From: Phycisphaeraceae bacterium
GTDB lineage: Bacteria; Planctomycetota; Phycisphaerae; Phycisphaerales; SM1A02
DNA: 64,000 bases
Assembly (NCBI GenBank): GCA_015709595.1
Contig: CP054178.1
Location: 2,547,205-2,611,204 of the forward strand
Direction: 5' to 3'
Shown here one piece after another: positions 10,452-45,827 of this stretch. Under the pieces are notes generated by a model that worked only from the letters and a program-made list of their open reading frames with translations, had not been told where the DNA came from and searched no databases. Position 1 is the first letter of the stretch. Each line of letters opens with the position of its first letter. A program made the position numbers and the translations under genes.

Positions 10452-12620
10452 ATGACTGGCCCGGCCGCCGACGCTTCGCATCGTGTGAATGACGGGTTGA
10501 ACGCGCGCCTGCTGGCGGAGTCGCTGCGAGGGCTGGAGTCATCGCGTCCGGGATCGGAGCGCCCCGGGTGGCCGATCGGCGCGGTCGAACCGGCGTCGGA
10601 TGATCCCGAGCGGGCCCTCATCAGTCGAGCGGTGGTTCATGCCGAGGCCCCGCGACTGGCCGCTTCGCTCCGGCGTTTCATCCGTAGGTCGGTGATGCTG
10701 GTTCTTCTGATGATGCTGATCCCGCTGGTCGCGGGCGGCGTGGCGGCCCGCGCGGCCGTCACGGGAACCACCGCCAACGTCTTCGGGCTTCTGGGGGGAT
10801 TGCTCGGGGTGCAGACGGTCTTCCTGCTGCTGTGGGCGGCGGTCATGGCGTCCTCACGCCGCGCCGGGGGAGGCGTGGTCGGTCGAACCCTCATCGAGTT
10901 CGCCATGAGCGTGATGCGACGGGTGCTCCGATCGGATGTGGACGCCGCCTCGGCGCAGGCCCTCGGCTCGGTCCTGGCGTTTCCGCGCGTCGGTCGATGG
11001 ATGATCTCCCTGCTGACGCACGCGGCGTGGGCCTGCTTCAACCTGGGAGCGATGGCGGCTCTGGCGTTCATGTTTCTCGGCGAGGGTTATCAATTCCGCT
11101 GGGATTCCACGTGGCTTTCAGCGGAGTCCTACGCGAGGGTCATCCATTGGGTGGGCGCGGGCCCGGACGCCCTGGGCTTTCCAACGCCCGATGCGTCGCA
11201 GATCGCCGCTTCGAGAACGGCTTCGGGCGGCCCGGCGGCGCAGGATGAGCCCACCCGCGCCGCGTGGTCGTGGCTGTTCTTCGGGTCGGTCGTGGTGTAC
11301 GGCCTGGCGCCGCGGCTGTTGCTGGCGCTGTCGTCGGGAGTTCTGCTGCGACGATCGCTGCGGCGGTATCGGCTCGATCTGGATCACCCGTACTACATGT
11401 CGCTGCTGCGCGCCAGGCATGCGCCCGTCGCCGCCCCGGCGCCGCGGGGCGATGAAACCACGACGCCATCCGTCGCGGGCCGGATGAGTTCGTCCCGCAA
11501 CGCACCGCCGGGTTGCGCCGTCGGCCTGTTGGGATACGAGATCACCTCGGACAACTGGCCTCCCCTTCGTGAGGGCCTCGACCTGGGCCGCATCGACGAT
11601 CGGGCGCAGCTCACCGGCGCGCTGAACCGGGCGAAGGCCCAATCGGGTGAAGTGGGGCGAGTGCTGGTGTTCGTCGAGCTGCGCACGTCACCCGATCGCG
11701 GTGTGCGCGGCGTCCTGGAGCACGTCGCCACGTCGCTGCCTCGTTGGGAAATCTGGGTGGTGCTGAGCGGCGGCCGGGCGTTCAACAGTCGCGCCGGCGC
11801 CGAGGCGACGGAGCGCCGCGTCGCCGGCTGGCGCCGCATCGTGCGCGATGCGGGACTGGACGCGGATCGCGTGGTCGAACTCGACCTCGATCATCTCACC
11901 GACGTGACGCGTTCCCGGCTGCGGGCGATGGCGCGGGGTGAGTCGATCAACGAAGTCGCCGGACGTTGCCTCGAAGGCGCCTTCGGGCTGATTCAGGAAG
12001 CAGCCGAGCAGTGGACGCCGTGCGTGCCGTGGAAGGCGCAGGTCGAGTTGCTTCAGCGCCTCGACGCGCTGTACGGTCGTGGCGCGGGGAGAGCCGGTCC
12101 ATCCGTCTGGCAGGCCTCCGTGGATCGCCTGTCGCGCGTGCGCTCGGTCGCCGAAGCGTCCGAGGCGTTGACCGGCGCCGCACGGCAGTTCGCCGAGCGG
12201 CTGCCGCCATCGCTTCGCCTGCGGCCAGCATGGATGGCGGCTGGCGCGGTGGCCGGCGCGGTGGGGTGTCTGGCCGCGGCGCTCACGCTGGCGCCGGCGG
12301 CGGTGGGGGCGTTGCCGCTCTGGTCCGGGCTTGGCGCGGCGGTGGCGGGCGCGATGTCCTCGCTCGGCAGGAGCGGCGGCGCCGAGGCGACAGCATGCGA
12401 TGACCACGGGGCGTCCCGGGGGTCGGCGGTTCGCGCCGCGGCGCTGTACGCCATGACCCTGGAGTCGCAGGGGCGGCCGGAGTCACGGATCAGTCAGGTG
12501 CTGGAGCGTGCAATCCCGGCGGATGAACCCGAGCTGGAGGATGTCGATTCCATCCGCCGCTGGCTGGATGACGTGCGCCACCGCTTCGATCTGGCTCTGG
12601 TTTCGGAGGGCGTCGCGTGA
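10452..12620 (+). CDS. DUF2868 family membrane protein
   Basis: A 722-residue membrane protein from the ATG at 10452. An in-frame ATG at 10398 would add 18 residues, but the -10-like TACGAT favours 10452. Membrane segments are seen at about 77-98, 108-132, 192-214, 272-300 and 594-637. The stretch from GYQFRWDSTWLS to DALGFPTPDASQIAASR is the diagnostic DUF2868 core (an aromatic/W-x-S/T-T region, then L-G-x-P-x-P). A cytoplasmic Rossmann-like region follows (RVLVFVELRTSPDRGV and IWVVLSGGRAFNS). The function is unknown. DUF2868 genes are known to pair with DUF3482 GTPases, as here, where the next start overlaps this stop. Confidence 0.75.
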   Translation: MTGPAADASHRVNDGLNARLLAESLRGLESSRPGSERPGWPIGAVEPASDDPERALISRAVVHAEAPRLAASLRRFIRRSVMLVLLMMLIPLVAGGVAARAAVTGTTANVFGLLGGLLGVQTVFLLLWAAVMASSRRAGGGVVGRTLIEFAMSVMRRVLRSDVDAASAQALGSVLAFPRVGRWMISLLTHAAWACFNLGAMAALAFMFLGEGYQFRWDSTWLSAESYARVIHWVGAGPDALGFPTPDASQIAASRTASGGPAAQDEPTRAAWSWLFFGSVVVYGLAPRLLLALSSGVLLRRSLRRYRLDLDHPYYMSLLRARHAPVAAPAPRGDETTTPSVAGRMSSSRNAPPGCAVGLLGYEITSDNWPPLREGLDLGRIDDRAQLTGALNRAKAQSGEVGRVLVFVELRTSPDRGVRGVLEHVATSLPRWEIWVVLSGGRAFNSRAGAEATERRVAGWRRIVRDAGLDADRVVELDLDHLTDVTRSRLRAMARGESINEVAGRCLEGAFGLIQEAAEQWTPCVPWKAQVELLQRLDALYGRGAGRAGPSVWQASVDRLSRVRSVAEASEALTGAARQFAERLPPSLRLRPAWMAAGAVAGAVGCLAAALTLAPAAVGALPLWSGLGAAVAGAMSSLGRSGGAEATACDDHGASRGSAVRAAALYAMTLESQGRPESRISQVLERAIPADEPELEDVDSIRRWLDDVRHRFDLALVSEGVA

Positions 12621-28936: not shown

Positions 28937-29176
28937 CTACCTGGGATTCCGGCTCTTGCCGTTGATACTGGCGTTGTATCCCGCTTCCTCGATCACGCGC
29001 CGCAGCGCCTCGCCGGTGCAGCTGGCGTCATGCGAGACGATCGCCCGCCCCCGGTAGAGACTGACTTCGACGTGGTGGACGCCCCGCACCCGCTCCAGCG
29101 CCTCGGTGAGCCGTTCGCGGCAGCGGTTGTCGCGCATGCCGCCGATCAGAATGCTGGTCTGAGTATCACGGGACAT
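28937..29176 (-). CDS. HMA-like (heavy-metal-associated fold) small protein lacking the first metal cysteine
   Basis: A 79-residue protein with the beta-alpha-beta-beta-alpha-beta pattern of copper chaperones: ILIGGMRDNRCRERLTEALE, then VRGVHHVEVSLYRGRAIVSHD, then ALRRVIEEAGYNASI. In canonical members the motif is M-x-C-x-x-C. Here it reads M-R-D-N-R-C, so the first cysteine is an aspartate. One further cysteine occurs at SCTGE. It may still bind metal or may be a non-metal relative. It is transcribed away from the FixL-like kinase gene. Start ATG at 29176; longer upstream frames on this strand lie over the kinase gene. Confidence 0.65.
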   Translation of the reverse strand: MSRDTQTSILIGGMRDNRCRERLTEALERVRGVHHVEVSLYRGRAIVSHDASCTGEALRRVIEEAGYNASINGKSRNPR

Positions 29177-29398
29177 TGGCGTCGAACCAGGTACGGGAAC
29201 CCCGCGGAACACTCCGCCAGGGCGAATCGATGCGGACCTTGTGGGGATGGATGAGTCGCGAAGCGGCATGTGGCGACAACGGGGGCGGGCAGCGAGATCC
29301 CCATGCCGTGAATCTTGGCTCATCGTCTGGCTGGCACCATGCGGAAACTTACCCGATTCGCCGCGTGATCGAGTTCCGCCGGCATGTGGACGTGGCCA

Positions 29399-29409: not shown

Positions 29410-31521
29410 ATGACGGAACGACCAGCCCCATCCTCGCGTTCTCGATCGCGGGCGAAGTCTCGGACCGAATCATCGTCGATATCGCTGGAGCGGGCGGTGC
29501 TGGCCGCCACGCTCGATCCCGTGGTGGTGATCGACGCCTGGGGGGTGATTCAATCGGCCAGCGACTCGATCGAGCGGGTGTTCGGGTGGAAGCCGAGTGA
29601 TCTGACCGGCCGCAACGTCAGCATGCTGATGCCTCAGCCGCACCGTGGGGCGCACAACGGGTACCTGGAGCGCTATCGACGCACGGGTCAGACCACCATC
29701 CTGAACCGGGCGCGTCAGTTCGAGGCGGTGCGCCGAGACGGGGAGCTGTTCCCCATCGAACTCTGCGTGTCACGGGCCGACGTGCCGGGGCGGGATTCGC
29801 CTCTCTTCGTCGGCATCATCCGCGACCTTGGAGAACGCAAGCGCTTCGAGCAGGAACTGGGACTGGTGCAGACCCTGACGCGGTTGATCGGTGAAGCCCG
29901 CACGTTGTCCGAGGCGATGCATGAAACGCTCCGGGAGATCATCCAGGCCACCGGATGGGACTACGGCGAGGTGTGGCTGCACGCGGGCGCCGCCGATGGC
30001 GGCACGGACACCGCCGTGGTGCGCGGCGCGTGCTGGCCTCGGACGGGCCGCCGCTTCGCCGCCATGCGGGCCGGCGCGTCGCGTCTGACGGCCCGCACGC
30101 ACTCGGGGCTGGTGGGTCGATCATGGAGCGCCGCGGAGAGCGTGTGGTTCGATGATCTTCCGAAACTGAGCCCGCGGGTGTTCCTGCGTCATCATGAGGC
30201 CACGGCGGCGGGACTGAAGGCGGCGGCGGCGATTCCCATCCGGTGTGAGGATCAGACCGAGGCGCTGCTGCTGTTCTTCCTGCGCCGAAGCCGAAGGGAT
30301 GACCACCGCCTGCTCTCGCTGGTGACGGCGGCGGTCGCCCCGCTGGGGCAGCTCATCCGCCGGCGCAACGCCGAGGACGCGCTGGCGCGACATCACGATC
30401 AGCTCGAGCAGCTGGTCGAGGAGCGAACCGCTCAGCTCGAGAAGAGCCGCGCCCAGCTGCACATGGCTGACCGCATGGCGTCCATCGGCACACTGGCCGC
30501 CGGCCTGGGCCACGACATGAACAACGTGCTGCTGCCGGTGCGGGCGCGGTTGAACGCGCTGCGTCATTCCGATCCGGCGCTTCCGGCGGCAGCTCGACAC
30601 CACCTGGAGGGCATCCAGCGGAGCATCGCCTATCTGCAGCAGCTGGCCGATGGCCTGCACTACCTGGCGCTCGACCCGGAGCGGGAAGACGCCACCGAAT
30701 CAGCCACCGATCTGGCCGACTGGTGGCGCGACGTGGGGGTGCTGATCGGCAAGGCCGCTCCGAAGCAGGTGCGGTTGACGGCGGCGCTGCGCGGCGACCT
30801 GCCCGAAGTCGGCGTGCCCGCCCACGGGCTCACGCAGGCGGTGCTCAACCTGGTGGTGAACGCGGGCGAGGCGATCGCCTCCATGCCGCAGAGGCGTATC
30901 GGACGCATCCGTCTCGAGGCGGAGCCGGTCGAGCGCGACGGTCGATCCTGGGTGCGTCTCTCGGTCATTGACAACGGCCCGGGCATGAGTGAGGAGGTCC
31001 GACGTCGCGCGTTCGAGATGTTCTTCACCACCAAGCCGCGTGGGTTGGGCACGGGACTGGGGCTTTCCCTTGTGCGCAAGGTGGTGGACGCCGCCGGAGG
31101 GGTGGTGGAAATCGAATCGGAGAAAGGGCGCGGCACGAAGGTCTCGATGCTCCTGCCGATCGCAGCGCGGGCGTCCAGCGCGAACGGAGATGCGGGCGGC
31201 GGAAGAACCGCGTTCGTGGAGTTGACCGACGGCCGGGCGGCCTCGCTGGTGCGTCACTTCATCGAGTCGTCCGGGATGACGGTCGTCGAACCTCATGCCT
31301 GCGGCGGGGCGGATTGCTGGTTGATCGAACCGCTTCCAGGTGCTCTGAATCGCGTCCGTTCGTGGCGATCCGCCCGTCCCCGGGGGCGCGTGGTGCTGTG
31401 GGGCGCACCGTCCCCGCGGGAGCGGAGTGGGTGGAAGTCGCTCGGCGCGATTACCATCACCAGGCCCGATGACCTCGACGACGTGCGTGCCGCGCTCGCC
31501 GAGGCGGCGTCGGATCGCTGA
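29410..31521 (+). CDS. FixL-like oxygen-sensing histidine kinase (heme PAS, GAF, HisKA, HATPase)
   Basis: A 703-residue cytoplasmic sensor kinase. The N-terminal PAS (about 30-148) is strikingly FixL-like: NVSMLMPQPHRGAHNGYLER carries His82 at the place of the FixL proximal heme ligand, and Arg102, six residues before RRDG, matches the distal arginine that senses bound oxygen. A GAF-like domain (about 155-315) follows, then a coiled coil and the HisKA box AAGLGHDMNN with phospho-acceptor His368, the N box VLNLVVNAGEAI, and ATP-lid motifs DNGPGMSEE and GTGLGLSLV. Residues 590-703 look like a receiver remnant without the aspartate. The next gene is its likely response regulator. Confidence 0.88.
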   Translation: MTERPAPSSRSRSRAKSRTESSSISLERAVLAATLDPVVVIDAWGVIQSASDSIERVFGWKPSDLTGRNVSMLMPQPHRGAHNGYLERYRRTGQTTILNRARQFEAVRRDGELFPIELCVSRADVPGRDSPLFVGIIRDLGERKRFEQELGLVQTLTRLIGEARTLSEAMHETLREIIQATGWDYGEVWLHAGAADGGTDTAVVRGACWPRTGRRFAAMRAGASRLTARTHSGLVGRSWSAAESVWFDDLPKLSPRVFLRHHEATAAGLKAAAAIPIRCEDQTEALLLFFLRRSRRDDHRLLSLVTAAVAPLGQLIRRRNAEDALARHHDQLEQLVEERTAQLEKSRAQLHMADRMASIGTLAAGLGHDMNNVLLPVRARLNALRHSDPALPAAARHHLEGIQRSIAYLQQLADGLHYLALDPEREDATESATDLADWWRDVGVLIGKAAPKQVRLTAALRGDLPEVGVPAHGLTQAVLNLVVNAGEAIASMPQRRIGRIRLEAEPVERDGRSWVRLSVIDNGPGMSEEVRRRAFEMFFTTKPRGLGTGLGLSLVRKVVDAAGGVVEIESEKGRGTKVSMLLPIAARASSANGDAGGGRTAFVELTDGRAASLVRHFIESSGMTVVEPHACGGADCWLIEPLPGALNRVRSWRSARPRGRVVLWGAPSPRERSGWKSLGAITITRPDDLDDVRAALAEAASDR

Positions 31522-31540
31522 CAAGGAGTCGTGCAAGGCC

Positions 31541-32305
31541 ATGACAGAGTCCACGACCAGAGCCGCCGCCACTCGCGCTCGACGTGTTTCCACGGGAGGA
31601 GCTTCCGGTACTCCGACCGCTCCGGAGGGCGACGGCGTCCGCGTCCTGTGCGTGGACGACCACGCCGTGCTGGTGGAGGGGCTGAAGGCGCAGTTCGCCG
31701 TGGATGGCCGAGTGCGCGTGGTGGGGCGCCTGGCGACCGCGGAGAAACTGCTCGACGAGGTGGAACGCCTCCATCCGCGGGTGGTGCTGCTGGACATCGA
31801 GATGCCCGGGCCGGACGCCTTCGAGATGGCCGATCGTCTGCGGCACCTGCACCCTCAGGCGCGGGTGATCTTTCTGTCCGCGCACATCCGCGATCGGTAT
31901 CTGAACGCGGCGTACAAGTGCGGCGCGTGGGGATACTTCGCCAAGGGCGATGAGCTGGAGGACATCGTCGCGGGTGTGAAGCAGGTGGCGGCGCAGACCA
32001 GCAGCGCGTTCGTCATGGGGCCGAAGGTGAAGGCGCACTGCGCCCTGCCGCGCGCCGGGAGTCACGGTCGTTCATCGTCCGCCGAAGCCGCGCCGCGCAC
32101 CGCGCTGGATGCGCTCACCCCCCGCGAGATTGAGGTGCTGCGGCTGATCGGGAAGGGGTTGTCGCGCACGCAGATCGCCAAGGAGCTCTGCCGCAGCGCC
32201 AAGACGATCGACGGTCACCAGGAGCGCATTCTCAAGAAGCTGGGAGTCGAGTCACGGGCGGAACTGATGCGTCTGGCGATCCGCGAGGGGTTCGCCGAGG
32301 CGTGA
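31541..32305 (+). CDS. LuxR/FixJ-type response regulator
   Basis: A 254-residue DNA-binding response regulator. The receiver (about 33-155) has the acidic pair DD (39-40), the phospho-acceptor Asp85 in VVLLDIEMPG, the conserved Ser/Thr in FLSAH and Lys in YFAKGDE. A serine-rich linker leads to a LuxR helix-turn-helix (about 185-245): LTPREIEVLRLIGKGLSRTQIAKEL, then KTIDGHQERILKKLGV. It starts 19 bases after the kinase, with AAGGAG at 31523, and presumably receives phosphate from it. An N-terminal disordered arm of about 30 residues is unusual. Target genes are not proven; the cbb3 operon downstream is the obvious candidate. Confidence 0.9.
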   Translation: MTESTTRAAATRARRVSTGGASGTPTAPEGDGVRVLCVDDHAVLVEGLKAQFAVDGRVRVVGRLATAEKLLDEVERLHPRVVLLDIEMPGPDAFEMADRLRHLHPQARVIFLSAHIRDRYLNAAYKCGAWGYFAKGDELEDIVAGVKQVAAQTSSAFVMGPKVKAHCALPRAGSHGRSSSAEAAPRTALDALTPREIEVLRLIGKGLSRTQIAKELCRSAKTIDGHQERILKKLGVESRAELMRLAIREGFAEA

Positions 32306-32333
32306 ACGCCTGTCAACCCGACCCGTCAGCGCA

Positions 32334-32374
32334 TGAAAAAGGGGCGGGCAAGGCGTGTCCTGCTTGCTCGCCCC
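32334..32374 (-). terminator. Intrinsic terminator of the porin gene
   Basis: ggggcgggcaag (32341-32352) pairs with cttgctcgcccc (32363-32374), a 12-base stem with one G-T pair and a ten-base loop. On the minus strand it is followed by TTTTT, so it would terminate the minus-strand porin transcript about 106 bases after its stop. On the + strand there is no T-run, though it may also stop readthrough from the regulator gene. Confidence 0.75.
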
Positions 32375-32479
32375 ATGCGGTTGGCTCCGCGTGGTTCGGC
32401 CATTCCTGTCGTGGTGGAGCGGCCGACGATGTGGGTGATGGGTGCCTGCGGTGCGTGTGTGTTTGGGGGTGGAGGGGGG

Positions 32480-33829
32480 TCAGAACTTCAGTTGCAGCTG
32501 GGTGCGGAAGACGATCTGTCCGTCGTTGTCCGAGGCGTCGGTTCGCCACCCCGCGCCGGCGCCGCCGGTGCCGAGCAGTCCATCGCCCCAGGTGGCGCTG
32601 ACCTCGTTGAGTCCGTAGCCCACGTCGCAGCTCCAGCGAAGCTGCTGGCGTGAGAAGTACTTGTTGAAGCCGACGGTGACGATGCTCAGATCCTCCGAGG
32701 AGATGTCGTCGTCGCCCCATTCGTAGCGGGCGAAGAGTTCGACATCATCGGTGACGAAGAAGCCGCCCTGGATGACGAAGCCGTACTGGTCGAGGTCGAT
32801 CGTGGTGGAGTCGAGGTGCCGTCCGACCACGTACGCCAGCAGGTTGGCGCCGCCGAACTCGAGCGAGGCGTCCACCGTCCATTGCAGGGCCTCGATCTCG
32901 TCGGCCGCGGTGCCGTACTCGCCGTCCTGGTAATGGATGCCGCCGCCCAGCATGAAGCCGAACTCCTCGCCCTTCCACGAGGTGAGATCGGCGAACTGAT
33001 CCCACGAGCCGGCCAGCAGCACCTCGGCCCGTGCGGTGAGCGAGTATTCGGTGTCGTAGGCCAGCGCCGGAGCGTTGGTGCCGCCGGTGGCGGTGTGTCC
33101 GTCGGTGTAGCCGAACGTGAAATGCAGCCAGTCGCCGCGGTAGTCGATGGCTGCGCCCTGGGTGCGTCCGGCGTTGAACTCGGCATCGACGAGCGAGCGC
33201 TCGACGGGAAGCTGGTCGTAGTTCTCCACGAGGAACTCGCGCTGCATCGGCACCTTGACCTGTCCGGCGAGGAATGTCCAGCCGTTGCCGAGGGCCTTGC
33301 CGATGAAGGCGTCCTCCAGCACGAACCCGCCGCCCATCGATGAGAAGTTGCCCTGAACCTTGTAGATCCACGACGGATCGACGACGTGGCCGGTGAAGAT
33401 GAGCTTGGTGCGCCGGCTCTCGAATCCGCCCCGGGATGAATCCTCGGCGTCATCATCCTGGTGGTTGAAGACGTACCGGACCTGCACCAGCCCCTTGAGG
33501 TTGAGCCGGAAGTTGCCGTCCGCGCTGGCCAGGAAGAATCCGTTGTCCCACCCGGCCGTCCCGCCGCCCTGCAGCAGCGACGCGCGGGTGTCAGCGTCGG
33601 CCAGTACGTCCTGCACGAGGGCGCGGATGTCGGCGGCGCGCTGCTCGGTGAGCCAGTGATGCGTGCTCGTCTGCTTCAGTTCCGCCAGACGCGCTTCCAG
33701 TTCCGCGACGCGCTGACGCAGGGAGGCGTCGTCCTCGCCCAGTGCTGACGCCGCGGGTGCGCTCGCCAGCATGACCGTTGCGGCGGCGGCCAGACCCAGG
33801 GCGGCGCCTCCGACCCGTGGTGTACGCAT
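32480..33829 (-). CDS. OprO/OprP-like outer membrane porin
   Basis: A 449-residue outer-membrane beta-barrel protein. A signal peptide (GLAAAATVMLASAPAASA) is followed by a short coiled coil (LRQRVAELEARLAELKQ), as in trimeric porins. Then come GFFLASADGNFRLNLKGLVQVRYVF and alternating barrel strands, ending in LQLKF with the C-terminal phenylalanine needed for Bam-dependent insertion. The pattern matches the phosphate-selective porin O/P family. Specificity cannot be told from sequence. It lies between the two-component genes and the cbb3 operon, divergent from the latter, and has its own terminator. Confidence 0.85.
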   Translation of the reverse strand: MRTPRVGGAALGLAAAATVMLASAPAASALGEDDASLRQRVAELEARLAELKQTSTHHWLTEQRAADIRALVQDVLADADTRASLLQGGGTAGWDNGFFLASADGNFRLNLKGLVQVRYVFNHQDDDAEDSSRGGFESRRTKLIFTGHVVDPSWIYKVQGNFSSMGGGFVLEDAFIGKALGNGWTFLAGQVKVPMQREFLVENYDQLPVERSLVDAEFNAGRTQGAAIDYRGDWLHFTFGYTDGHTATGGTNAPALAYDTEYSLTARAEVLLAGSWDQFADLTSWKGEEFGFMLGGGIHYQDGEYGTAADEIEALQWTVDASLEFGGANLLAYVVGRHLDSTTIDLDQYGFVIQGGFFVTDDVELFARYEWGDDDISSEDLSIVTVGFNKYFSRQQLRWSCDVGYGLNEVSATWGDGLLGTGGAGAGWRTDASDNDGQIVFRTQLQLKF

Positions 33830-33892
33830 GAGTCCATCCTTTCCTCATTCGGATCAGCGCTGGCGGGAAGGCACGAGCCGGGTCCGCCGTCG

Positions 33893-33924
33893 CCGAATAT
33901 CGGATAAAAGCATCCCGTATTCGG
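33893..33924. promoter_or_regulatory. Candidate operator in the 308-base porin/cbb3 intergenic region
   Basis: ccgaata (33893-33899) and tattcgg (33918-33924) are perfect inverted copies 18 bases apart. Nested between them, ggat and atcc (33902-33915) form a second inverted pair. attcgg occurs twice more in this gap (33847 and 34109 areas). The gap separates the divergent porin and ccoNO genes and holds no gene that I can see. A regulator site, for instance for the nearby FixJ-like protein, is plausible but not shown. Confidence 0.4.
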
Positions 33925-34137
33925 AAAAAGGCCGCCATCGGGAAGATTCCCTGATCGGGCGAACCCGTGGCGTTCGGGTGGACAAGGTGTCCGCGCTCCC
34001 CGGGGACGTGAGGGGTGCAAACAGGGACGCTTCCCTGTAGTCGCCCGGCATGGCGGGAGCGATTGTTTCCTCGCGACAGGGCGACAGACCGCCGCGGGGC
34101 GGTTGCCCATTCGGCTCACGACAGGAACCACGACGCG

Positions 34138-36463
<2,326 letters not shown>

Positions 36464-36477
<14 letters not shown>

Positions 36478-36697
36478 CGCAAGGTTCGTGCTGCTGGCCG
36501 CAGGCGTGACCTGGGTGGAGGCGGCGCTGGTTCTGTTCTTCGTGATGTTTCTGGCGGTGGTGATCTGGACGGTCGTCGCGAAGCGGGATCGTTTTCACGC
36601 GGTCTCCCGCATTCCGCTGCAGGATGATCGGCCTGTCGAGCCGCGCCTGCCGGCTGGCGGCGATCGCACCGGAAAGGAGTCGGCCCATGTCAGGTAA
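36464..36697 (+). CDS. ccoQ: CcoQ-like small cbb3 oxidase subunit
   Basis: A 77-residue protein with one membrane helix (WVEAALVLFFVMFLAVVIWTVV) and a short polar tail (KRDRFHAVSRIPLQDDRP). Its size, topology and place between ccoO and ccoP match CcoQ/FixQ, which stabilises the complex. The start overlaps the ccoNO stop by 14 bases and its end overlaps the ccoP start by 11. Sequence is too short for a firm family call on its own; position decides it. Confidence 0.75.
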
Positions 36698-37295
36698 ACC
36701 GACGGGCGGATTGCTCGACCACGAGTACGACGGGATCAAGGAGTTCGACAACCCGCTGCCCGGATGGTGGCGATGGCTCTTTGCGCTGTCGATCTTCTTC
36801 TCCATCGGGTACTGGATGTGGTACCACATCGGCATCGGGGCGAGCATCCACGACACCTATCAGCAGCAGGTCGCGTCGTACTGGGAGGAGAACCTGGCGC
36901 GGCTGGGCTGGACGAAGCCCACCAACGAAGCCATCGTGATGCTCAGCCGCAACGAGAGCGTCATGGCCGCTATGGCCGGAATGTTCGAGAGCAACTGCGC
37001 CCAGTGTCATCGGGCGGATTTGGGCGGCAACATCGGCCCGAACCTGACGGACGACGAGTGGAAGAACGTCACCAAGCCGGAGGACATCGTCCGCGTGATC
37101 CGCGACGGGGTGAAGGGCACCGGCATGACCGCGTGGGGTACGCGCTTCCGTGAGCCGCAGATGATGCTGCTGGCGGCCTACATCGTGGCTCAACGGGGCT
37201 CCAACCCACCTAATCCGAAAGCGCCGGAGGGCATGGCGATTGCGCCGTGGGATTCCTTCCTGCCTGCCGATGGCGGAGGCGCCGCGGGGAAATGA
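36687..37295 (+). CDS. ccoP: CcoP-like cbb3 oxidase subunit, monoheme form
   Basis: A 202-residue membrane-anchored cytochrome c. The N-terminus has the CcoP signature DHEYDGIKEFDNPLPGWW and one membrane helix (LFALSIFFSIGYWMWYHIG). A single heme-binding site is present, NCAQCH (Cys104, Cys107, His108), with a likely Met ligand in GTGMTAWG. Classical CcoP has two such sites and about 300 residues. Here the first cytochrome domain has no CxxCH and is reduced to a linker. The protein passes electrons from soluble cytochrome c towards CcoO. Its stop overlaps the ccoG start (ATGA). Confidence 0.93.
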   Translation: MSGKPTGGLLDHEYDGIKEFDNPLPGWWRWLFALSIFFSIGYWMWYHIGIGASIHDTYQQQVASYWEENLARLGWTKPTNEAIVMLSRNESVMAAMAGMFESNCAQCHRADLGGNIGPNLTDDEWKNVTKPEDIVRVIRDGVKGTGMTAWGTRFREPQMMLLAAYIVAQRGSNPPNPKAPEGMAIAPWDSFLPADGGGAAGK

Positions 37296-38848
37296 CCACC
37301 GCCGCACCATCCGAGGCCCCGGAGCGCGTACTTTCGACGCTCAACCGCGACGGCACGCGCCGGTGGCTTGACCCCCGGCTCTCCAAGGGTCGTTTTCTGG
37401 CGCGCCGGCGTGTCGTGGCCTACGTGCTGCTGGTGCTCTACAACGCGCTGCCGTGGATTGAGATCAACGGCAAGCCGGCGATGCTGCTGGACGTGGCGCG
37501 GCGCGAGTTCACGTTCTTCGGAACCACGTTCCTCTCCACCGACACCCTGCTGCTGATGCTGTTCATCGCGGGTGTGTTCGTGCTGGTGTTTCTGCTCACC
37601 GCGCTCTTCGGGCGCGTGTGGTGCGGCTGGGGCTGCCCGCAGACGGTGTACATGGAATTCGTGTTCCGTCCGCTGGAGCGGCTCTGCCTCGGCGCCTCGC
37701 CTGCGGCCCGCAGGCAGAACGCCGGCGCCATGCCGCTGCGCCGGGCGCTGATGTACCTGGCGTACTTCGTCGTTGCGTTCCACCTTGCCAACACGTTTCT
37801 GTCGTATTTCGTGGGAGCAAGGACGGTGTTCCAGTGGTCGCTCGGTTCGCCGCTCAATCATCCTGCGGCGTTTCTGCTGGTGCTGGCGGTGACGGGGCTG
37901 ATCCTCTTCGATTTTGCGTACTTCCGCGAGCAGGTGTGCATCGTGGCCTGCCCGTATGGGCGGCTCCAGTCGGTGATGCTCGACCGCTCCTCGCTCATCA
38001 TTTCGTATGACGAGAAGCGCGGCGAGCCGCGGGGGAAGAAGGGATCGAAGGATCGAGGGAACAAGGGAACGGGGCATCAAGGGATCGAGGGATCGAGGGG
38101 CCAAGGGAGCGAGCCGGGGGCTGGCGACTCCCACCTGTCCTCGCGCTCGGCCCTCCACGCCTCGATGCCTCTTGCCTTGATGCCCGCTCCAACCGGCGAT
38201 TGCATCGACTGCCGCCTGTGCGTTACGACCTGTCCCACCGGCATCGACATCCGCGATGGCTTGCAGATGGAGTGCATCGGCTGTGCCCAGTGCATCGACG
38301 CCTGCGATGCGGTGATGGAGAAGATCGGTCGCCCGCGGGGGCTGATCCGCTACTCATCGCGGGAGGCGATGGAGGCGGGGCGCAAGCACCTGCTGCGCCC
38401 GCGCGTGATTCTGTATCCGGGGCTGCTGCTGGTCATCGCATCTCTCTTCGTGCTGGTGCTGGTCAACCGCGCCCCGGCGGACATCACGCTGCTGCGCGCC
38501 AGTACGCGGCCGTATGTGACGCTGACCGACGGTCGCGTCGTCAACGAAGTGACAGTCAAGATCGTCAACCGCACCGACGAGTTGCGACGGTATGATTTTT
38601 CCATCGAAGACATGGCGGGCGGCGCGATGGAAACAATCACGCCCGTGATCGAGGTTGCGCCGGGGGAGACCGGTCAGGTCGTGCTCTCGATCACGTCGCC
38701 GCGCGGTGTGTTTCAGCGCGGCATGGCGACGGCGACCATCATCATCCGCGATGATGCGGGGTACGAGAAGCGGATGCCTCACCGGCTGCAGGGGCCGTTC
38801 GGCGGGGGAACCAGAGGCGGGTCAGCCGTTTCGGAGAGCGACGAATGA
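37292..38848 (+). CDS. ccoG: CcoG / RdxA-like cbb3 assembly ferredoxin with in-frame repeat insertion
   Basis: A 518-residue membrane iron-sulfur protein. Membrane segments occur at about 33-52, 80-105, 150-172, 190-210 and 370-390. GRVWCGWGCPQTVYME and CIVACPYGRLQS are the NapH-like motifs. Two 4Fe-4S ferredoxin motifs follow (CIDCRLCVTTCPTGIDIRDG and CIGCAQCIDACD), and the C-terminus has an immunoglobulin-like domain. CcoG reduces copper for oxidase assembly. Between the conserved RGEPRG and GDCIDC lie about 53 residues instead of roughly 13. The extra part is encoded by octamer repeats (38033-38112) plus a short non-conserved stretch. Confidence 0.94.
   Translation: MTTAAPSEAPERVLSTLNRDGTRRWLDPRLSKGRFLARRRVVAYVLLVLYNALPWIEINGKPAMLLDVARREFTFFGTTFLSTDTLLLMLFIAGVFVLVFLLTALFGRVWCGWGCPQTVYMEFVFRPLERLCLGASPAARRQNAGAMPLRRALMYLAYFVVAFHLANTFLSYFVGARTVFQWSLGSPLNHPAAFLLVLAVTGLILFDFAYFREQVCIVACPYGRLQSVMLDRSSLIISYDEKRGEPRGKKGSKDRGNKGTGHQGIEGSRGQGSEPGAGDSHLSSRSALHASMPLALMPAPTGDCIDCRLCVTTCPTGIDIRDGLQMECIGCAQCIDACDAVMEKIGRPRGLIRYSSREAMEAGRKHLLRPRVILYPGLLLVIASLFVLVLVNRAPADITLLRASTRPYVTLTDGRVVNEVTVKIVNRTDELRRYDFSIEDMAGGAMETITPVIEVAPGETGQVVLSITSPRGVFQRGMATATIIIRDDAGYEKRMPHRLQGPFGGGTRGGSAVSESDE
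38033..38112. repeat. Ten-unit degenerate octamer tandem repeat inside ccoG
   Basis: Read in eights from 38033: gggaagaa, gggatcga, aggatcga, gggaacaa, gggaacgg, ggcatcaa, gggatcga, gggatcga, ggggccaa, gggagcga. The period is exact over 80 bases, with consensus gggatcga. The unit length is not a multiple of three, so the encoded peptide is not periodic, yet the frame stays open. It encodes a Gly/Lys/Arg-rich linker between the membrane part and the ferredoxin domain of CcoG. Confidence 0.85.
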
Positions 38849-39009
38849 AACGCCGCACGCTGGCCATCCTGTTGCTGGTGCTCATGGTGCTGGTCTTCTT
38901 CGCCGTGGACGCGGCGATGATCGCGATCTCCTCGCGCACAGTGACTGTTTCATCTCCACCCGCGGACGCGGCGCAGATCCGCGTCGTACCGAAGGGGAAC
39001 ACGCGATGA
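38845..39009 (+). CDS. Small single-helix membrane protein in the cbb3 operon (CcoH position)
   Basis: A 54-residue protein. It starts with ATG overlapping the ccoG stop (ATGA at 38845) and its stop overlaps the start of the next gene, so it is tightly coupled on both sides. An N-terminal membrane helix follows two arginines (ILLLVLMVLVFFAVDAAMIAI), and about 25 residues lie outside. Its place is where ccoH/fixH is normally found, but FixH has about 150 residues. It could be a reduced CcoH analogue or a separate small subunit. The overlaps on both sides are the main support that it is real. Confidence 0.65.
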   Translation: MKRRTLAILLLVLMVLVFFAVDAAMIAISSRTVTVSSPPADAAQIRVVPKGNTR

Positions 39010-39809
39010 TCACACTCATCGCAGCCGTCTTCGCGGCGAGCATCGTCGGTTCGCTCCACTGCGCGGGCATGTGCGGCGGCGTGCTGGCCCTGGCCATCGG
39101 CGTGGCCGGGGGTGACGCCACGCCGCGATGGCGATTACAGACCGCCTATCACGCGGGGCGACTGACGACCTATTCAGGACTCGGACTTCTGGCGGGTGCG
39201 ATTGGGTCAACGATGGACCGGGCCACGATCGCCGGCATCGAGCGCCCAGCCGCGATCGTGGCCGGCGCGGTCATGATCGCCTTCGGCGCGATGGCTCTGG
39301 CCCGCGTGTGCGGCCTGCGCGGCTTGCGCGTGCGTTCGGTGTCGGGATGGCCCGCACTGCAACGTGTCATCCGGTACGGCTACGACTTCGCCTTCTCCCG
39401 CTCCGGCCTGCTGCGGGCGGCGACGCTCGGGCTGCTCACCGGTCTGCTGCCCTGCGGCTGGCTCTGGGTGTTCGTCGCGGCGGCGGCGGCTACGGGAGAT
39501 GCGGCGACCGGCGCCATCACCATGGCGGTTTTCTGGTCGGGCACGCTGCCGATCCTGGCCGCGGCGGGGGCAGGCATGCAAGCGCTCGCCGGGCCGTTGC
39601 AACGGCATCTGCCGAAGCTCACGGCGATCGTGCTGATCGCGGTCGGCGCGTGGACGGTGAGCGCCCGGGCGTTCGGACCTTCGATGCTGACGCGCCTGCC
39701 CGGCGATGCTCGTGAGCACGGCATCCATGCGGCGCTGAACCACATCGACTCCATCGACGAATCGGACCTTCCCTGTTGCACCCATGACGACGTTGACGAT
39801 TCCAACTGA
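39006..39809 (+). CDS. SafE/TauE-like (COG2836) membrane protein, probable copper-related cbb3 accessory
   Basis: A 267-residue protein with six predicted membrane segments. It opens with ITLIAAVFAASIVGSLHCAGMCGG, the Cys-containing signature (CAGMCGG) of the COG2836 family, and has a second motif GLLTGLLPCGWLW in the fourth helix. These proteins recur in cbb3 operons next to ccoI and ccoS and are thought to help copper delivery; the transported species is not settled. The C-terminus ends in CCTHDD, a possible metal-binding tail, and overlaps the ccoI start by 26 bases. Confidence 0.85.
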   Translation: MITLIAAVFAASIVGSLHCAGMCGGVLALAIGVAGGDATPRWRLQTAYHAGRLTTYSGLGLLAGAIGSTMDRATIAGIERPAAIVAGAVMIAFGAMALARVCGLRGLRVRSVSGWPALQRVIRYGYDFAFSRSGLLRAATLGLLTGLLPCGWLWVFVAAAAATGDAATGAITMAVFWSGTLPILAAAGAGMQALAGPLQRHLPKLTAIVLIAVGAWTVSARAFGPSMLTRLPGDAREHGIHAALNHIDSIDESDLPCCTHDDVDDSN

Positions 39810-42288
39810 GCGGGGCTGCTTGGTCGCACCGCCCTGTGCGGCCAGGACCGCCTGCACCCACTGTGGTCTGCCCGTCCCCGCCGGGCTGATCGAGTCCGGC
39901 GCGGCGGAACAGTTCTGCTGCGCCGGCTGCCGCACGGTGCATGACATCCTTCACCGAAGTGGCCTGGGGCGTTTCTACGCCGTGCGCCATCGCACGGGCG
40001 CCGCCCCTCGACCGGCGCGACCTTCGAATGGGTCCTTCGCGGGCTTTGATGACCCGGCGTACTTTGCGGCGTCGTGCCGCGCGATCTCACCCGCGCGGTG
40101 CGAGACGGAGTTCTATCTTGAGGGCGTCCACTGCGCCGCCTGTGTGTGGCTGGTGGAGAAACTGCCACGATTGACCCCGGGCGTGATCGAAGCGCGGCTG
40201 GACCTGGGCCGCGGCATGGTCCATCTGGCGTGGGATCCGCGCGTGATCGCGTTGTCGGAGATCGCACGTCGGCTGGACCGGCTCGGCTACGTGCCGCACC
40301 CGGCGCGCGGGCACGCGGCGCGTGAGCGCCATCGCGCCGAGGACCGCCGTCGCATGGTGCGCATCGCCGTGGCGGGAGCCATTGCGGGCAACGTGATGGT
40401 GATCTCCTTCGCGATGTACGGAGCGATGTTCCACGCCATGGAGCAGGAGTTTCTTTCGCTCTTCCGCTGGTCCACGCTGGGTCTGGCGACGGTGAGCGTG
40501 GCGTGGCCCGGGCGCGAGTTCTTCCGCGGCGCGTGGAAAGCCCTGCACGCCCGTACCGTCAACATGGACCTTCCCATCGCCATCGGCCTTTCCGCGGGTC
40601 TGATCGCGGGGGCGGTCAACACCGTGCGCGGCGGCGGCGAGGTCTACTTCGACTCCATCACCGTACTCATTCTGCTGCTGCTTTCCGGGCGATTCCTGCA
40701 GACCCGCCGCCAGCGCGCCGGGTACGAGGCAGTTGAAGCCATGCTGGCGCTCACGCCGTCGACCGCGCGGCGGATTGAGGGCGATGGTCTACGGGAGGTT
40801 CCCATCACTTCCATCGCGCGCGGCGATCGGCTGGAAGTTCGCGCGGGCGATTCCTTCCCGGCGGACGCCGTGGTGCGCGAAGGCGCCTCGAACATCGATC
40901 GCGCGATTCTGACCGGTGAGTCGCGCCCCGTGCCGGCAGGGGTCGGCGACGTGGTTCACGCGGGCACGACCAACCTTGGCGCGCGCCTCGTGGTGGAGGT
41001 GACGGAGACGGGCGAATCCACCCGCATCGGGCGATTGATGCGACTGGTGTCGGAGAGCGCCCATGCGCGGCCGCGCCTGGTGCGGCTGGCGGATCGGGTT
41101 GCGTCGGTGTTCGTGATCGTGGTGCTCACCATCGCGGCGGGCACGGCGGGTGCGTGGATGCTCGTCGATCCCTCACGCGCCCTGGAATGCTCGATGGCGC
41201 TGCTCATTGTCACCTGTCCGTGCGCGCTGGGCATGGCCACACCGCTGGCGGTGGTGGCGTCGCTGGGCCAGGCGGCGCGGCGGGGGATTCTCATCAAGGG
41301 CGGCGACGTGATCGAGCGGCTTGCCTCGCCCGGGCTGGCCGTGCTGGACAAGACCGGAACCGTCACCGCGGGTGAGATGTCTCTTGTGTCGTGGCACGGT
41401 GACGATTCGCTCAAGCCCATCGCCGCGGCGGTCGAGCGGCACTCGGCACACCCGATCGCCAGAGCGATGGTGATGGGGCTGAGGGCGGAGACGTCCGAAC
41501 CGGACGACTCGGTTGAAGTGCTCGCCGTGACTGAAACGACCGGTCGAGGCATGACAGCGATGGTTCGAACCGCGGCCGGAGAGCAGGCCATCCGGATCGG
41601 CAGCCGCGCGTTCGTGACAGATCAGGGCGCACAACCGCCTGCGTTGATCGATCGGGTCGAGCATGACCTGACGATTCGCGCCGTATCGCCGGTGTTCATC
41701 GCGGTGGACGGCGTGGTGCGCGCTGTGGCGGGCGTTGGCGACCCCATCAAGCCGGACGCCGCGGCCGTGGTCGCTGAGCTGCGCCGGCGCGGCTGGCGCG
41801 TGGCGATTCTCTCGGGCGATCACCCGGACGTGGTGAGGGTGGTGGGGGCGTCGATCGGCGTCGAGCCGGGCGACTGTCACGGCGGCGTGTCGCCGGAAGA
41901 CAAGGCCGAATGGATCCGCGAGGCCGCGGCGCAGGGACCGGTGATGATGATCGGCGACGGGGTGAACGACGCCGCCGCGCTCGCCGCCGCCACGGTGGGC
42001 GTGGCGGTGAAGGGCGGCGCGGAAGCCGCGCTTCAGGCGGCTGACGTGTTCATCGCGTCACGTGGGCTGGCCCCGGTGGTGGAGATGCTCGACGGCGCCA
42101 AGCGCGCGCTGCGAGTCATCCGGCGCAACGTGGCGGCGTCGCTGGGATACAACGCCATCGCCACCGCGCTGGCGGTGACAGGCGTCATCAACCCGCTCAT
42201 CGCCGCGATCATGATGCCGATCAGTTCGCTGACGGTTGTGACGCTCTCATTCCGCTCGCGCACGTTTGGAGGGCCGCCATGTCAGTGA
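39784..42288 (+). CDS. ccoI: CcoI-type copper-translocating P1B ATPase
   Basis: An 834-residue metal-exporting P-type ATPase needed to supply copper to cbb3 oxidase. The N-terminus has a four-cysteine module (CTHCGLPVP, then FCCAGC), followed by a degenerate HMA-like domain with GVHCAACVWLVEKL. Membrane helices carry the ion-binding CPC motif (Cys478-Pro-Cys480). The phosphorylated Asp522 is in DKTGT. TGES and GDGVNDAAAL complete the catalytic machinery. Length and N-terminal Cys-rich extension are typical of CcoI/FixI. It sits between the SafE-like gene and ccoS, overlapping both. Confidence 0.96.
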   Translation: MTTLTIPTERGCLVAPPCAARTACTHCGLPVPAGLIESGAAEQFCCAGCRTVHDILHRSGLGRFYAVRHRTGAAPRPARPSNGSFAGFDDPAYFAASCRAISPARCETEFYLEGVHCAACVWLVEKLPRLTPGVIEARLDLGRGMVHLAWDPRVIALSEIARRLDRLGYVPHPARGHAARERHRAEDRRRMVRIAVAGAIAGNVMVISFAMYGAMFHAMEQEFLSLFRWSTLGLATVSVAWPGREFFRGAWKALHARTVNMDLPIAIGLSAGLIAGAVNTVRGGGEVYFDSITVLILLLLSGRFLQTRRQRAGYEAVEAMLALTPSTARRIEGDGLREVPITSIARGDRLEVRAGDSFPADAVVREGASNIDRAILTGESRPVPAGVGDVVHAGTTNLGARLVVEVTETGESTRIGRLMRLVSESAHARPRLVRLADRVASVFVIVVLTIAAGTAGAWMLVDPSRALECSMALLIVTCPCALGMATPLAVVASLGQAARRGILIKGGDVIERLASPGLAVLDKTGTVTAGEMSLVSWHGDDSLKPIAAAVERHSAHPIARAMVMGLRAETSEPDDSVEVLAVTETTGRGMTAMVRTAAGEQAIRIGSRAFVTDQGAQPPALIDRVEHDLTIRAVSPVFIAVDGVVRAVAGVGDPIKPDAAAVVAELRRRGWRVAILSGDHPDVVRVVGASIGVEPGDCHGGVSPEDKAEWIREAAAQGPVMMIGDGVNDAAALAAATVGVAVKGGAEAALQAADVFIASRGLAPVVEMLDGAKRALRVIRRNVAASLGYNAIATALAVTGVINPLIAAIMMPISSLTVVTLSFRSRTFGGPPCQ

Positions 42289-42419
42289 TCTACGTGGTCT
42301 TCGGACTCGGTCTGCTAGTGGTGGCTGCGGCGATCGCCGCGTTCATCTGGGCGGCCAAGTCGGGTCAGTATGACGACCTCGATACGCCGTCGGTGCGGAT
42401 GATCGTGGATGATGAGTGA
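42279..42419 (+). CDS. ccoS: CcoS, cbb3 oxidase maturation protein
   Basis: A 46-residue protein with one membrane helix: MSVIYVVFGLGLLVVAAAIAAFIWAAKSGQYDDLDTPSVRM. The helix, the conserved W-A/S-x-K-S-G-Q-Y/F-D-D-L-x-x-P pattern and the place after ccoI identify CcoS, required for heme and copper insertion into the oxidase. The start overlaps the ccoI stop by ten bases. It closes the cbb3 operon. Confidence 0.93.
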   Translation: MSVIYVVFGLGLLVVAAAIAAFIWAAKSGQYDDLDTPSVRMIVDDE

Positions 42420-42967: not shown

Positions 42968-43264
42968 GTGACGACCAAACTGATTCTTGGACTCTTGACC
43001 TTCGCTCTGGGGTTCCTGGCGACGGCCGTTGTCGCAACGCCTGCCAACCATTCCTCGCTTGATCCATCCTGTCCTGAGTGGTGTTGCTACTGTTTGCAGA
43101 ACGAGGGCGGAACGACGTGCAAGAATTCCAACTTGCAGAAGTGCGTCACCTGCTGTGCCCGGTTGGCCGCATGCAATCCCTACATGTCAGCGTGTCAGGC
43201 GTTGTGCTTTGACGATTGGACATGTGCGCCAGCCCCCGCCGGTTGCGGATGTACATTCATGTGA
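42968..43264 (+). CDS. Secreted cysteine-rich small protein (14 Cys)
   Basis: A 98-residue protein I do not recognise. A signal peptide (LILGLLTFALGFLATAVVA) precedes about 74 mature residues with 14 cysteines, including WCCYC, TCC, and a CGC near the end. The even number suggests up to seven disulfides or a metal cluster. Start is GTG 42968 after a good Shine-Dalgarno. Base composition here is visibly lower in GC than in the flanking genes. The gene is followed after 16 bases by another secreted protein. The role is unknown; a secreted structural, toxin-like or metal-binding peptide are all possible. Confidence 0.65.
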   Translation: MTTKLILGLLTFALGFLATAVVATPANHSSLDPSCPEWCCYCLQNEGGTTCKNSNLQKCVTCCARLAACNPYMSACQALCFDDWTCAPAPAGCGCTFM

Positions 43265-44465: not shown

Positions 44466-45650
44466 TCACCGCTGCTCAATCGGCACGTACTTCACGCCGT
44501 GCGGGCCGACGTAGTCCGCGCCGGGGCGGATGAGTTTGTTCTCGGCCAGGTACTCGATGCAGTGCCCGCACCAGCCGGAGACGCGGCTCATGGCGAACAT
44601 GGGCGTGAACAGGTCCACATCCAGCCCCAGCGAGTAGTACGTGGTGGCGGAGTAGAAGTCCACGTTGGGCAGGATGCCCTTGGCCGCCACCGCCTCGCGC
44701 ATGATCTCCTCGATCTTGCGGCTCATCTCGTAGAGCTTCTGGTTGCCGGTGTCGCTGGCGATCTGCTGAGCGAAAGTCTTGAGGTACGTGGCCCGCGGGT
44801 CGTAGGCCTTGTAGACCCGGTGGCCGAAGCCCATGATGCGCTCCTTGCGCTCCAGCTTGCCCTTGATGTAGGGCTCGACGTTGTCAATGGAGCCGATCTC
44901 CTGCAGCATCACCATCACTTCCTCGTTGGCCCCGCCGTGCAGCGGGCCCTTGAGCGTGCCGATGGCGGTGGTGACGGCGGAGTACATGTCCGACAGCGTG
45001 GAGATCGTCACCATGGCCGCAAAGGTGGAGGCGTTGAAGCCGTGGTCGGCGTGGAGGATGAGGCATACATCCAGCGCCTTGGCCATGGCCTCGGTGGGCT
45101 TCTCGCCGCGCAGCATCCACAAAAAGTTGGTGGCCACGTTGAGGGACTTGTCGGGCTTGACGAAGGACTTGCCCTTGCGATGGCGGTCGAAGGCGGCGAT
45201 GAGCGTCGCCGTCTTGGCCAGCAGGCGGATGCTCTTGCGCTGGTTGGCTTCGGGCGAGCCGTCCTCGGTCTCGGGGTCGAAGAGCGCCAGCGCCGATACC
45301 AGCGTCCGCAGCGCCTGCATGGGCACGGCGTCGGCGGGGATACGGGCGATGATGCCGTGCATGGCGTCGGGGATGTCGTATTCCTGCTGGATGGACTTGA
45401 CGAAGGCGTCCAGTTCGCTCTTGCGCGGCAGGCGGCGGTTCCACAGCAGGAACACCGATTCCTCGAACGTGGAGTTGCGGGCCAGCGAGTCGATGTCGAT
45501 GCCCACGTACTCCAGCACGCCCTTGGCGCCGTCGATGAACGACATGCTCGTGTCGGCGGCGATGACGTTGGCCAGACCCGGATCCTTGAAGGTGGCGGGT
45601 TTGGTGGCTGAGGCGGGCTTGTCGGTGGTCGGCGTGGCGGTGGCGGTCAT
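44466..45650 (-). CDS. gltA: Citrate synthase
   Basis: A 394-residue TCA-cycle enzyme that condenses acetyl-CoA and oxaloacetate. Active-site regions are clear: HADHGFNASTFAA and GPLHGGANEEVM (first His), GFGHRVYKAYDPRAT (second His) and ILPNVDFYSATTYYSLG (catalytic Asp). The compact form without the NADH-regulated N-terminal domain of enterobacterial GltA resembles the Gram-positive/archaeal type; a 2-methylcitrate synthase cannot be fully excluded. ATG 45650 gives a short Thr/Ala-rich N-terminus; AAAGG lies about 12 bases upstream. Convergent with the upstream jelly-roll gene, 24 bases apart. Confidence 0.93.
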   Translation of the reverse strand: MTATATPTTDKPASATKPATFKDPGLANVIAADTSMSFIDGAKGVLEYVGIDIDSLARNSTFEESVFLLWNRRLPRKSELDAFVKSIQQEYDIPDAMHGIIARIPADAVPMQALRTLVSALALFDPETEDGSPEANQRKSIRLLAKTATLIAAFDRHRKGKSFVKPDKSLNVATNFLWMLRGEKPTEAMAKALDVCLILHADHGFNASTFAAMVTISTLSDMYSAVTTAIGTLKGPLHGGANEEVMVMLQEIGSIDNVEPYIKGKLERKERIMGFGHRVYKAYDPRATYLKTFAQQIASDTGNQKLYEMSRKIEEIMREAVAAKGILPNVDFYSATTYYSLGLDVDLFTPMFAMSRVSGWCGHCIEYLAENKLIRPGADYVGPHGVKYVPIEQR

Positions 45651-45827
45651 GGCTTGCTGCCTTTCACAAGTCGCGCCGGTAGGATCAGCATCCCCGGCGT
45701 CGTCAGCCCCACATGGTTCGCGAATGATCGGCCGGGCGATGCACGCCACCGGCCTCCACTTCGTTCGATCATAGCCCGCGACGCCCGCCGCTGCCACGAT
45801 GCGCCGAACAGGGAAATCACCCTCATC

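Follow-up and report, generated by a model that had tools for sequence, protein, structure and literature searches.

We analysed a 64,000-nucleotide stretch of a Phycisphaeraceae bacterium genome (contig CP054178.1, positions 2,547,205 to 2,611,204; hereafter the window), in which a sensor histidine kinase gene and a response regulator gene lie upstream of an operon for a cbb3-type cytochrome oxidase. Our results suggest that the kinase-regulator pair and the oxidase are probably wired together, through candidate operators of one type that occur before the kinase gene and before ccoNO. The features on which this argument draws are the following.

29339..29357, + strand: kinase promoter, candidate operator ATGCGGAAACTTACCCGAT, 53 bp upstream of the start codon
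29410..31521, + strand: sensor histidine kinase, ATG at 29410 and stop at 31521, 703 amino acids
29491..29844, + strand: FixL-type PAS, kinase residues 28-145, from phmmer and fold match
29653-29655, 29707-29709 and 29713-29715, + strand: codons of PAS residues His82, Arg100 and Arg102
29896..30339, + strand: GAF domain, kinase residues 163-310 (Pfam GAF_2 5.9e-07, GAF 8.7e-06)
31201..31518, + strand: receiver-like C-terminal domain (pseudo-receiver), strand/helix alternation over residues 600-700 in the AlphaFold model
31541..32305, + strand: NarL-type response regulator, receiver (REC) plus GerE (Pfam Response_reg 4.1e-19, GerE 5.4e-16)
33937..33955, + strand: ccoNO promoter, candidate operator 1, ATCGGGAAGATTCCCTGAT, 183 bp upstream of the start codon, pattern match with one mismatch
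34020..34038, - strand: ccoNO promoter, candidate operator 2, ACAGGGAAGCGTCCCTGTT, 100 bp upstream of the start codon, exact pattern match
34138..36477, + strand: ccoNO fusion (NCBIfam bifunctional cbb3 I/II model, 1197.5 bits against a cut-off of 1080; ccoN and ccoO models also above their cut-offs)

The sensor kinase and its partner regulator

The kinase is made up of a FixL-type PAS, a GAF domain, a DHp/HATPase core and a receiver-like C-terminus, in that order. Its H-box reads GHDMNN and contains His368, which is identical throughout 14 aligned orthologous kinases, an alignment that excludes the more distant kinases L060, L065, L067, L072, L073, L074, L181 and L182; HATPase_c spans residues 473-584. 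The C-terminal stretch appears to have a receiver fold in the AlphaFold model, an acceptor Asp is not evident in it by eye, and a Pfam search of the kinase gave no match over it. The whole protein has the NCBIfam model sens_FixL_Rhizob as its top match, at 152.3 bits, below the 850-bit equivalog cut-off. A sequence-only reading of this DNA had described a FixL-like PAS sensor to which a GAF domain had been added, and the Pfam matches bear out the addition. The GAF domain is not matched in the kinases of loci L061 and L062, in which the PAS His, Tyr and Arg are still kept.

The two PAS stretches quoted in that reading, MPQPHRGAHNGYLER and RQFEAVRRDG, are both present in the kinase, and the claim that His82 and Arg102 stand at the spacing seen in FixL also holds: in a sequence alignment with the FixL PAS they pair with His200 and Arg220, and no gap intervenes. 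Among solved relatives phmmer places the PAS closest to rhizobial FixL (4e-24), with DosP as the next family (4e-8). The AlphaFold model (mean predicted local distance difference test score 90.8) aligns with FixL at Z 19.6 (best non-FixL entry 15.7), and FixL structures hold all of Foldseek ranks 1-20, with DosP and LOV domains behind, which argues that the likeness to FixL is not due to chance. In the structural alignment model residue 14 lies opposite FixL 154, in the same register as the sequence alignment; model residues 60 and 80 (His82 and Arg102) therefore fall at FixL 200 and 220, if there is no gap between. Thus the closest solved PAS is that of FixL by sequence and by fold, and the proximal His and distal Arg expected of a FixL-type heme PAS are present as His82 and Arg102. 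His82, Tyr85 and Arg102 are identical in 14/14 aligned kinases, GAF-bearing or not, and among 45 PAS rows from the class (which count the PAS of this genome twice) 44 retain the FixL His200 and 43 retain Arg220. From these residues we infer that the kinase PAS binds heme, with O2 as ligand.

The partner had been described as FixJ-like, and this did not stand. With REC and GerE domains it is a regulator of the NarL/LuxR type, and the nearest NCBIfam models are MctR (126 bits) and NarL (105 bits), both also under their own cut-offs; FixJ (NF006900) scores 56 bits against an equivalog cut-off of 255.

Candidate operators shared by the kinase and ccoNO promoters

Expectation maximisation (EM) on the kinase promoters of eight relatives with an HMA partner gene, with this genome left out, region limits set by us and the L208 region shortened, yielded the palindrome GGGGAAATTTCCCC with a score of 51, against 24.0-28.8 in 12 shuffled sets. 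Scored with this relatives-only matrix, the 29339 site of the kinase promoter is the best in the window and was equalled in 0/1000 shuffles. The third and fifth places, 33937 and 34021 (the latter tied with 31927), both lie in the ccoNO promoter, and the better of the two was reached by 5/1000 shuffles of the region. This held-out search is a cleaner test than the first matrix described below, since it was learned from other promoters with this genome left out, and it is the strongest evidence for a common regulator of the kinase-regulator pair and the oxidase. A direct regulatory link to cbb3 via shared candidate operators is thus plausible.

The first matrix came from EM on nine regions of relatives, picked by eye, which gave a dyad and then an oriented matrix of 19 bp; motif widths of 16 and 17 gave a shifted and weaker motif. 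Its training omitted the regions of this genome (ccoNO, HK and L070_HK), the ccoNO dyad of which had already been seen when the regions were chosen, as well as L061_HKup, L061_fdhD, L069_HKup, L072_HK, L065_HK, L067_HK, L068_NTR and L062_CBS, the last being the same site as L062_VIT. Under this matrix the 29339 site scores 10.6 bits, which 36/2000 shuffles reach, and no site of at least 14 bits was found at L205, L207, L208, L211, L213, L225, L209, L215 or L216; the subclade form of the motif emerged only once the kinase promoters of relatives were used for EM.

The derived pattern AYVGGRAWDYNNCCCYGWT has 34 exact matches in the 61 genomes of the family, against 0 for the reversed control. Twenty-eight of these belong to the 18 genomes that have a kinase homologue at 1e-50, a line that we chose, and six to the other 43 (p 5e-8, scaled to the sizes of the genomes; 7e-6 minus six training sites). 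Counted by genome, 12/18 with a strong kinase homologue have a match, compared with 6/43 of the others (p 9e-5). If one mismatch is allowed, this genome has 11 matches (1 in the reversed control), and the window has 3 where 0.07 are expected. Two of the 11 matches in 3.84 Mb fall in the 308-bp region between ccoNO and a divergent porin gene.

Other matches in this genome lie at genes for a haem-binding-domain protein and an acyl carrier protein and in the interval between a polA-like gene and one of the carboxymuconolactone-decarboxylase family; at three of the 11 (L082, L083 and L087) the target is not recognisable. One possible further target lies within the window.

45808..45826, + strand: motif site before citrate synthase, 21.7 bits, 158 bp upstream of the likely start at 45650 (minus strand)

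Citrate synthase is named from a family match, and its start was picked by us inside a longer open reading frame (ORF). Elsewhere, at L081 (about 1501; genome position 2059909), a motif site lies between a Sec-type nosZ and a divergently oriented tyrosine phenol-lyase gene, the nosZ having been read from a cut-off ORF at 463 bits, below the full-length cut-off. A second kinase-regulator pair, without a PAS match, is found at L070 9581-12057 (about 3.79 Mb) with a 22.4-bit site upstream at 12184, and is likely to be either a cascade or a paralogue. In relatives, motif sites stand beside genes for universal stress proteins (USPs), CBS, Ribosomal_S30AE and VIT1 proteins, several of which were used to build the first matrix, and one site precedes a multicopper oxidase gene in genome G003; the USP genes of this genome have no good motif site in the stretches fetched. 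The regulated genes probably extend beyond cbb3.

The oxidase operon and the surroundings of the pair

The cbb3 operon, which the sequence-only reading placed 1.8 kb on, begins 1.83 kb past the regulator stop and runs over 34138-42419 in the order ccoNO-Q-P-G-H-(DsbD_2)-I-S. A porin gene that the same reading passed over sits between the regulator and the oxidase; it is divergent from ccoNO, and the 308-bp promoter region (33830-34137) is common to both. The remaining features of the locus are these.

28937..29176, - strand: small gene of HMA fold (by eye), 79 amino acids, divergent from the kinase
32480..33829, - strand: Porin_O_P outer-membrane porin (Pfam 1.2e-07)
36464..36697, + strand: ccoQ-like small membrane ORF, from position and hydrophobic sequence, no family match
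36687..37295, + strand: ccoP with a single CxxCH (FixP_N, Cytochrome_CBB3; ccoP model 89 bits, below 180)
37286..38848, + strand: ccoG, 427.9 bits, above cut-off
38845..39009, + strand: ccoH-like small ORF, from position only, no family match
39006..39809, + strand: DsbD_2 / SafE-type membrane protein (Pfam 2.3e-36)
39784..42288, + strand: ccoI copper P-type ATPase, copper-translocating ATPase model above cut-off, the name ccoI from position
42279..42419, + strand: ccoS (TIGR00847 above cut-off)

The identification as a cbb3 operon comes from ccoN, ccoO, ccoG and ccoS, all above their cut-offs, and from ccoI through the copper-ATPase model and its position. The ccoP is not of the diheme kind, with one CxxCH and a score short of the equivalog cut-off; one CxxCH rather than two was also seen in 14 ccoP genes called across 15 cbb3 loci of the family (L044-L058), and in 15/15 of these loci ccoN and ccoO match a single ORF. 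The porin-ccoNO region further contains an inverted repeat, CCGAATATCGGAT...ATCCCGTATTCGG, at 33893-33924 (two mismatches, by eye), separate from the operator sites, and a short Cys-rich, possibly secreted ORF (43000-43264, by eye) lies downstream of the operon.

The kinase-regulator pair is conserved, and its neighbours in relatives include genes for double USP, CBS-pair, Ribosomal_S30AE and VIT1 proteins. The closest named relatives are mostly metagenome-assembled genomes of the Phycisphaerales, which supports the sequence-only reading in its placing of the system outside the Proteobacteria; at these named loci the neighbours include CBS, alcohol-dehydrogenase-like, AhpD-like, USP and globin-like genes (names by eye). 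Neither ccoN nor ccoO occurs within the fetched stretches of the 80 named loci, about a dozen of which hold close relatives of the kinase. A search of 41 kinase loci, among which some places are counted twice, gave homologues of the HMA-like gene at 8, each time in divergent orientation to the kinase, and it is possible that this gene is a third component of the system. The copy described here has a single Cys (GMRDNRC) in place of the usual CxxC, as do five of the eight homologues; L205 reads CDNRC, L211 has CxxC and L174 has no Cys there.

Weighing a proposed direct oxygen switch, and known systems

When ccoN promoters were compared among genomes with the first matrix, 4 of the 8 genomes that carry the pair (this genome, 15.5 bits; G060, 15.4; G018, 24.0; G020, 13.0) and 1 of the 28 sorted as lacking it (13.9) had a site of at least 12.5 bits. 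The sorting was ours: G023, G025, G044 and G126 carry other related kinases or PAS domains and were placed among those lacking the pair. The comparison omits L051, whose ccoN start was not matched, and L054, which lies at a contig end. The G018 site is outside the training set, and the kinase of that genome is on another contig. Given these counts, the link to cbb3 recurs among genomes but is not universal.

We propose an autoregulated low-oxygen switch of the FixL type, acting directly on cbb3 within a hypoxia regulon resembling that of DosR, and on the sequence data we hold this to be a fairly likely, if far from secure, reading. The kinase PAS would bind heme via His82, and bound O2, in contact with Arg102, would lower kinase activity as in FixL. 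When O2 drops, His368 would be phosphorylated and the phosphate passed to the NarL-type regulator, which would then bind the GGGGAAATTTCCCC-type palindrome before its own operon and twice before ccoNO. The high-affinity oxidase would thereby be induced directly, with the FixK step bypassed, and the kinase operon would be induced as well. The oxidase would be one branch of a wider hypoxia set, with nosZ, citrate synthase and the second kinase-regulator pair in this genome and universal-stress, CBS and ribosome-hibernation genes in relatives. A FixK/FNR intermediate and an FNR box at ccoN, the marks of a FixLJ-FixK cascade, were not found: no FNR-type box with up to two mismatches occurs in the ccoNO promoter (33830-34137), and the only PF13545 match is an MntR-like ORF (by eye), PF00325 being outside the search.

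A number of observations weigh against this switch. Among the matches listed for the 61 family genomes, 16 of which (this one included) carry FixO, the kinase is near FixO in this genome only. In the 298 genomes of the class the PAS is matched at 1e-22 in 65 and FixO in 98, and 29 have both (nine of these with a strong FixO match); the two lie within 20 kb of each other in this genome alone, many of the others being fragmented assemblies, and the complete genome G092 has 2.3 Mb between them. Proximity to cbb3 is by itself therefore weak evidence for a link, and we rejected adjacency as an argument. The proposal of the sequence-only reading, a low-oxygen switch for this oxidase, thus gains from the FixL-type PAS and from the shared candidate operators at the kinase and ccoNO, and loses the support of an adjacency seen nowhere else. 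Four genomes that carry the pair (G010, G019, G058 and G092) have ccoN promoters under 12.5 bits, and the Fisher test of the ccoN comparison (p 0.005) uses a cut-off chosen after the scores had been seen, a rank test giving p 0.07. Three of the top six places in the window under the relatives-only matrix (8881, rank 2; 12708, rank 4; and 31927) are inside predicted genes, a sigma-70 scan at ccoNO detected no promoter, and we infer the binder of the motif from gene neighbourhood. In the PAS, FixL positions 206 and 214, at which Arg206 and His214 contact the heme propionates, vary among the class rows. Position 218 is Arg (16/45 rows) and 222 is Phe (15/45); since we take 218 to be the counterpart of the DosP Met95 ligand, the distal side would differ from that of FixL. 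In a wider set that includes distant kinases, 3 of the 14 PAS domains besides BjFixL are without Arg220 (L060, L067 and L074), and two of these, L060 and L067, are kinases that pair with a regulator of the same type and fall outside the 14-row alignment. All 14 keep His200, so that the His alone is not diagnostic; in PMC10468136 FixL and DosP share a single PAS cluster, with the His kept in more than 9700 sequences (60%).

Among the alternatives, the one that survives best is that the PAS binds heme but senses nitric oxide, carbon monoxide or redox state, as a switch for nitrosative stress or denitrification. The motif sites between nosZ and tyrosine phenol-lyase and before the G003 multicopper oxidase would suit it, as would the distal Arg at 218, where DosP has its Met95 ligand. 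We nevertheless consider it unlikely, as the Arg that contacts O2 in FixL is identical in the 14 aligned kinases, though lost in L060, and the targets include cbb3 twice as well as stress and dormancy genes. A little less likely still is that the pair controls a stress and dormancy set and itself, and is near cbb3 by chance, the ccoNO sites being coincidental or serving the porin. The other loci read do put the pair by stress genes and away from cbb3, the intergenic region is common with the porin, and in G019 (L105) a site goes with a gene that is porin-like by eye; against this, two of the 11 genomic sites share 308 bp, the held-out ranks at ccoNO are third and fifth, and the 24-bit site at G018 ccoN was never in the training set. 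The least likely of the three, that heme is unbound, the FixL-shaped PAS relaying signals in apo form or with some other ligand and the GAF being the real sensor, could draw on the varying propionate positions and on the retention of His200 in PAS domains without Arg220 (L067, L074; Arg220 also lost in L060), but must face the identity of His82, Tyr85 and Arg102 in kinases with and without GAF and a best fold match to FixL by about 4 Z units.

The autoregulated switch on cbb3 can be extended, tentatively and with doubts that outweigh our confidence, to a conserved oxygen module of three genes in the Phycisphaerales (an HMA-like protein with its CxxC mostly lost, the PAS/GAF kinase with a pseudo-receiver, and the regulator) with GGGGAAATTTCCCC autoregulation and a DosR-like regulon for hypoxia and dormancy. 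The module would be a third solution, assembled independently, beside FixLJ and DosST-R, and in this genome it would have brought cbb3, nosZ and citrate synthase under its direct control. In such a module the distal arginines 100 and 102 may tune the pocket to another oxygen range. If the proposed switch is true, one small operator predicts the low-oxygen regulon across the Phycisphaerales, oxygen sensing is tied to the oxidase and to the N2O reductase, and the system tests the separate recruitment of FixL-type sensing to NarL-type regulators. In searches of an open-licence library, no listed paper deals, in its title or at the start of its abstract, with how oxygen governs cbb3 in this class of planctomycetes.

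In Mycobacterium, DosS and DosT carry their heme in a GAF domain and signal to DosR, a NarL-family regulator with a palindrome of the GGGA..TCCC type, and the DosR regulon includes USPs, CBS, nitroreductase and ribosome-hibernation-like genes. The system described here resembles it in the family of the regulator and in the type of palindrome, may resemble it in a putative regulon of USP, CBS, nitroreductase and hibernation genes, and differs in placing the candidate heme site in a FixL-type PAS rather than a GAF domain. A connection between low-oxygen loci, USPs and DosR is also drawn in PMC6127331. The NmpRSTU system of Myxococcus xanthus, a globin-kinase/NtrC system with cbb3 and stress targets as outlined in PMC11841059, is alike in that oxygen sensing by heme, as we propose it here, is tied to the cbb3 oxidase and to stress genes in a lineage beyond the classical Proteobacteria; according to the same outline it differs in having a globin-type sensor, a phosphorelay and an NtrC-type regulator.

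The FixL-FixJ-FixK-fixNOQP cascade of rhizobia and Caulobacter, as generally described and in part in PMC4999443, shares with the present system, as we propose it, a heme-PAS kinase, a regulator with a LuxR-type domain and a cbb3 output. Here, in contrast, the regulator is NarL-type, the candidate operators are at ccoNO itself, no FixK/FNR was found with PF13545, a GAF domain and a pseudo-receiver have been added to the kinase, and the PAS has Arg at 218 and Phe at 222. The hFixL-FxkR-FixK variant of Rhizobium etli and R. leguminosarum, as set out in PMC7888657 and PMC4999443, likewise joins a FixL-type sensor to a non-FixJ regulator with cbb3 as its endpoint. There hFixL-FxkR acts through FixK on fixNOQP, with GTTACA-N4-GTTACA as the FxkR site, whereas here the GGGGAAATTTCCCC palindrome is at ccoNO itself.

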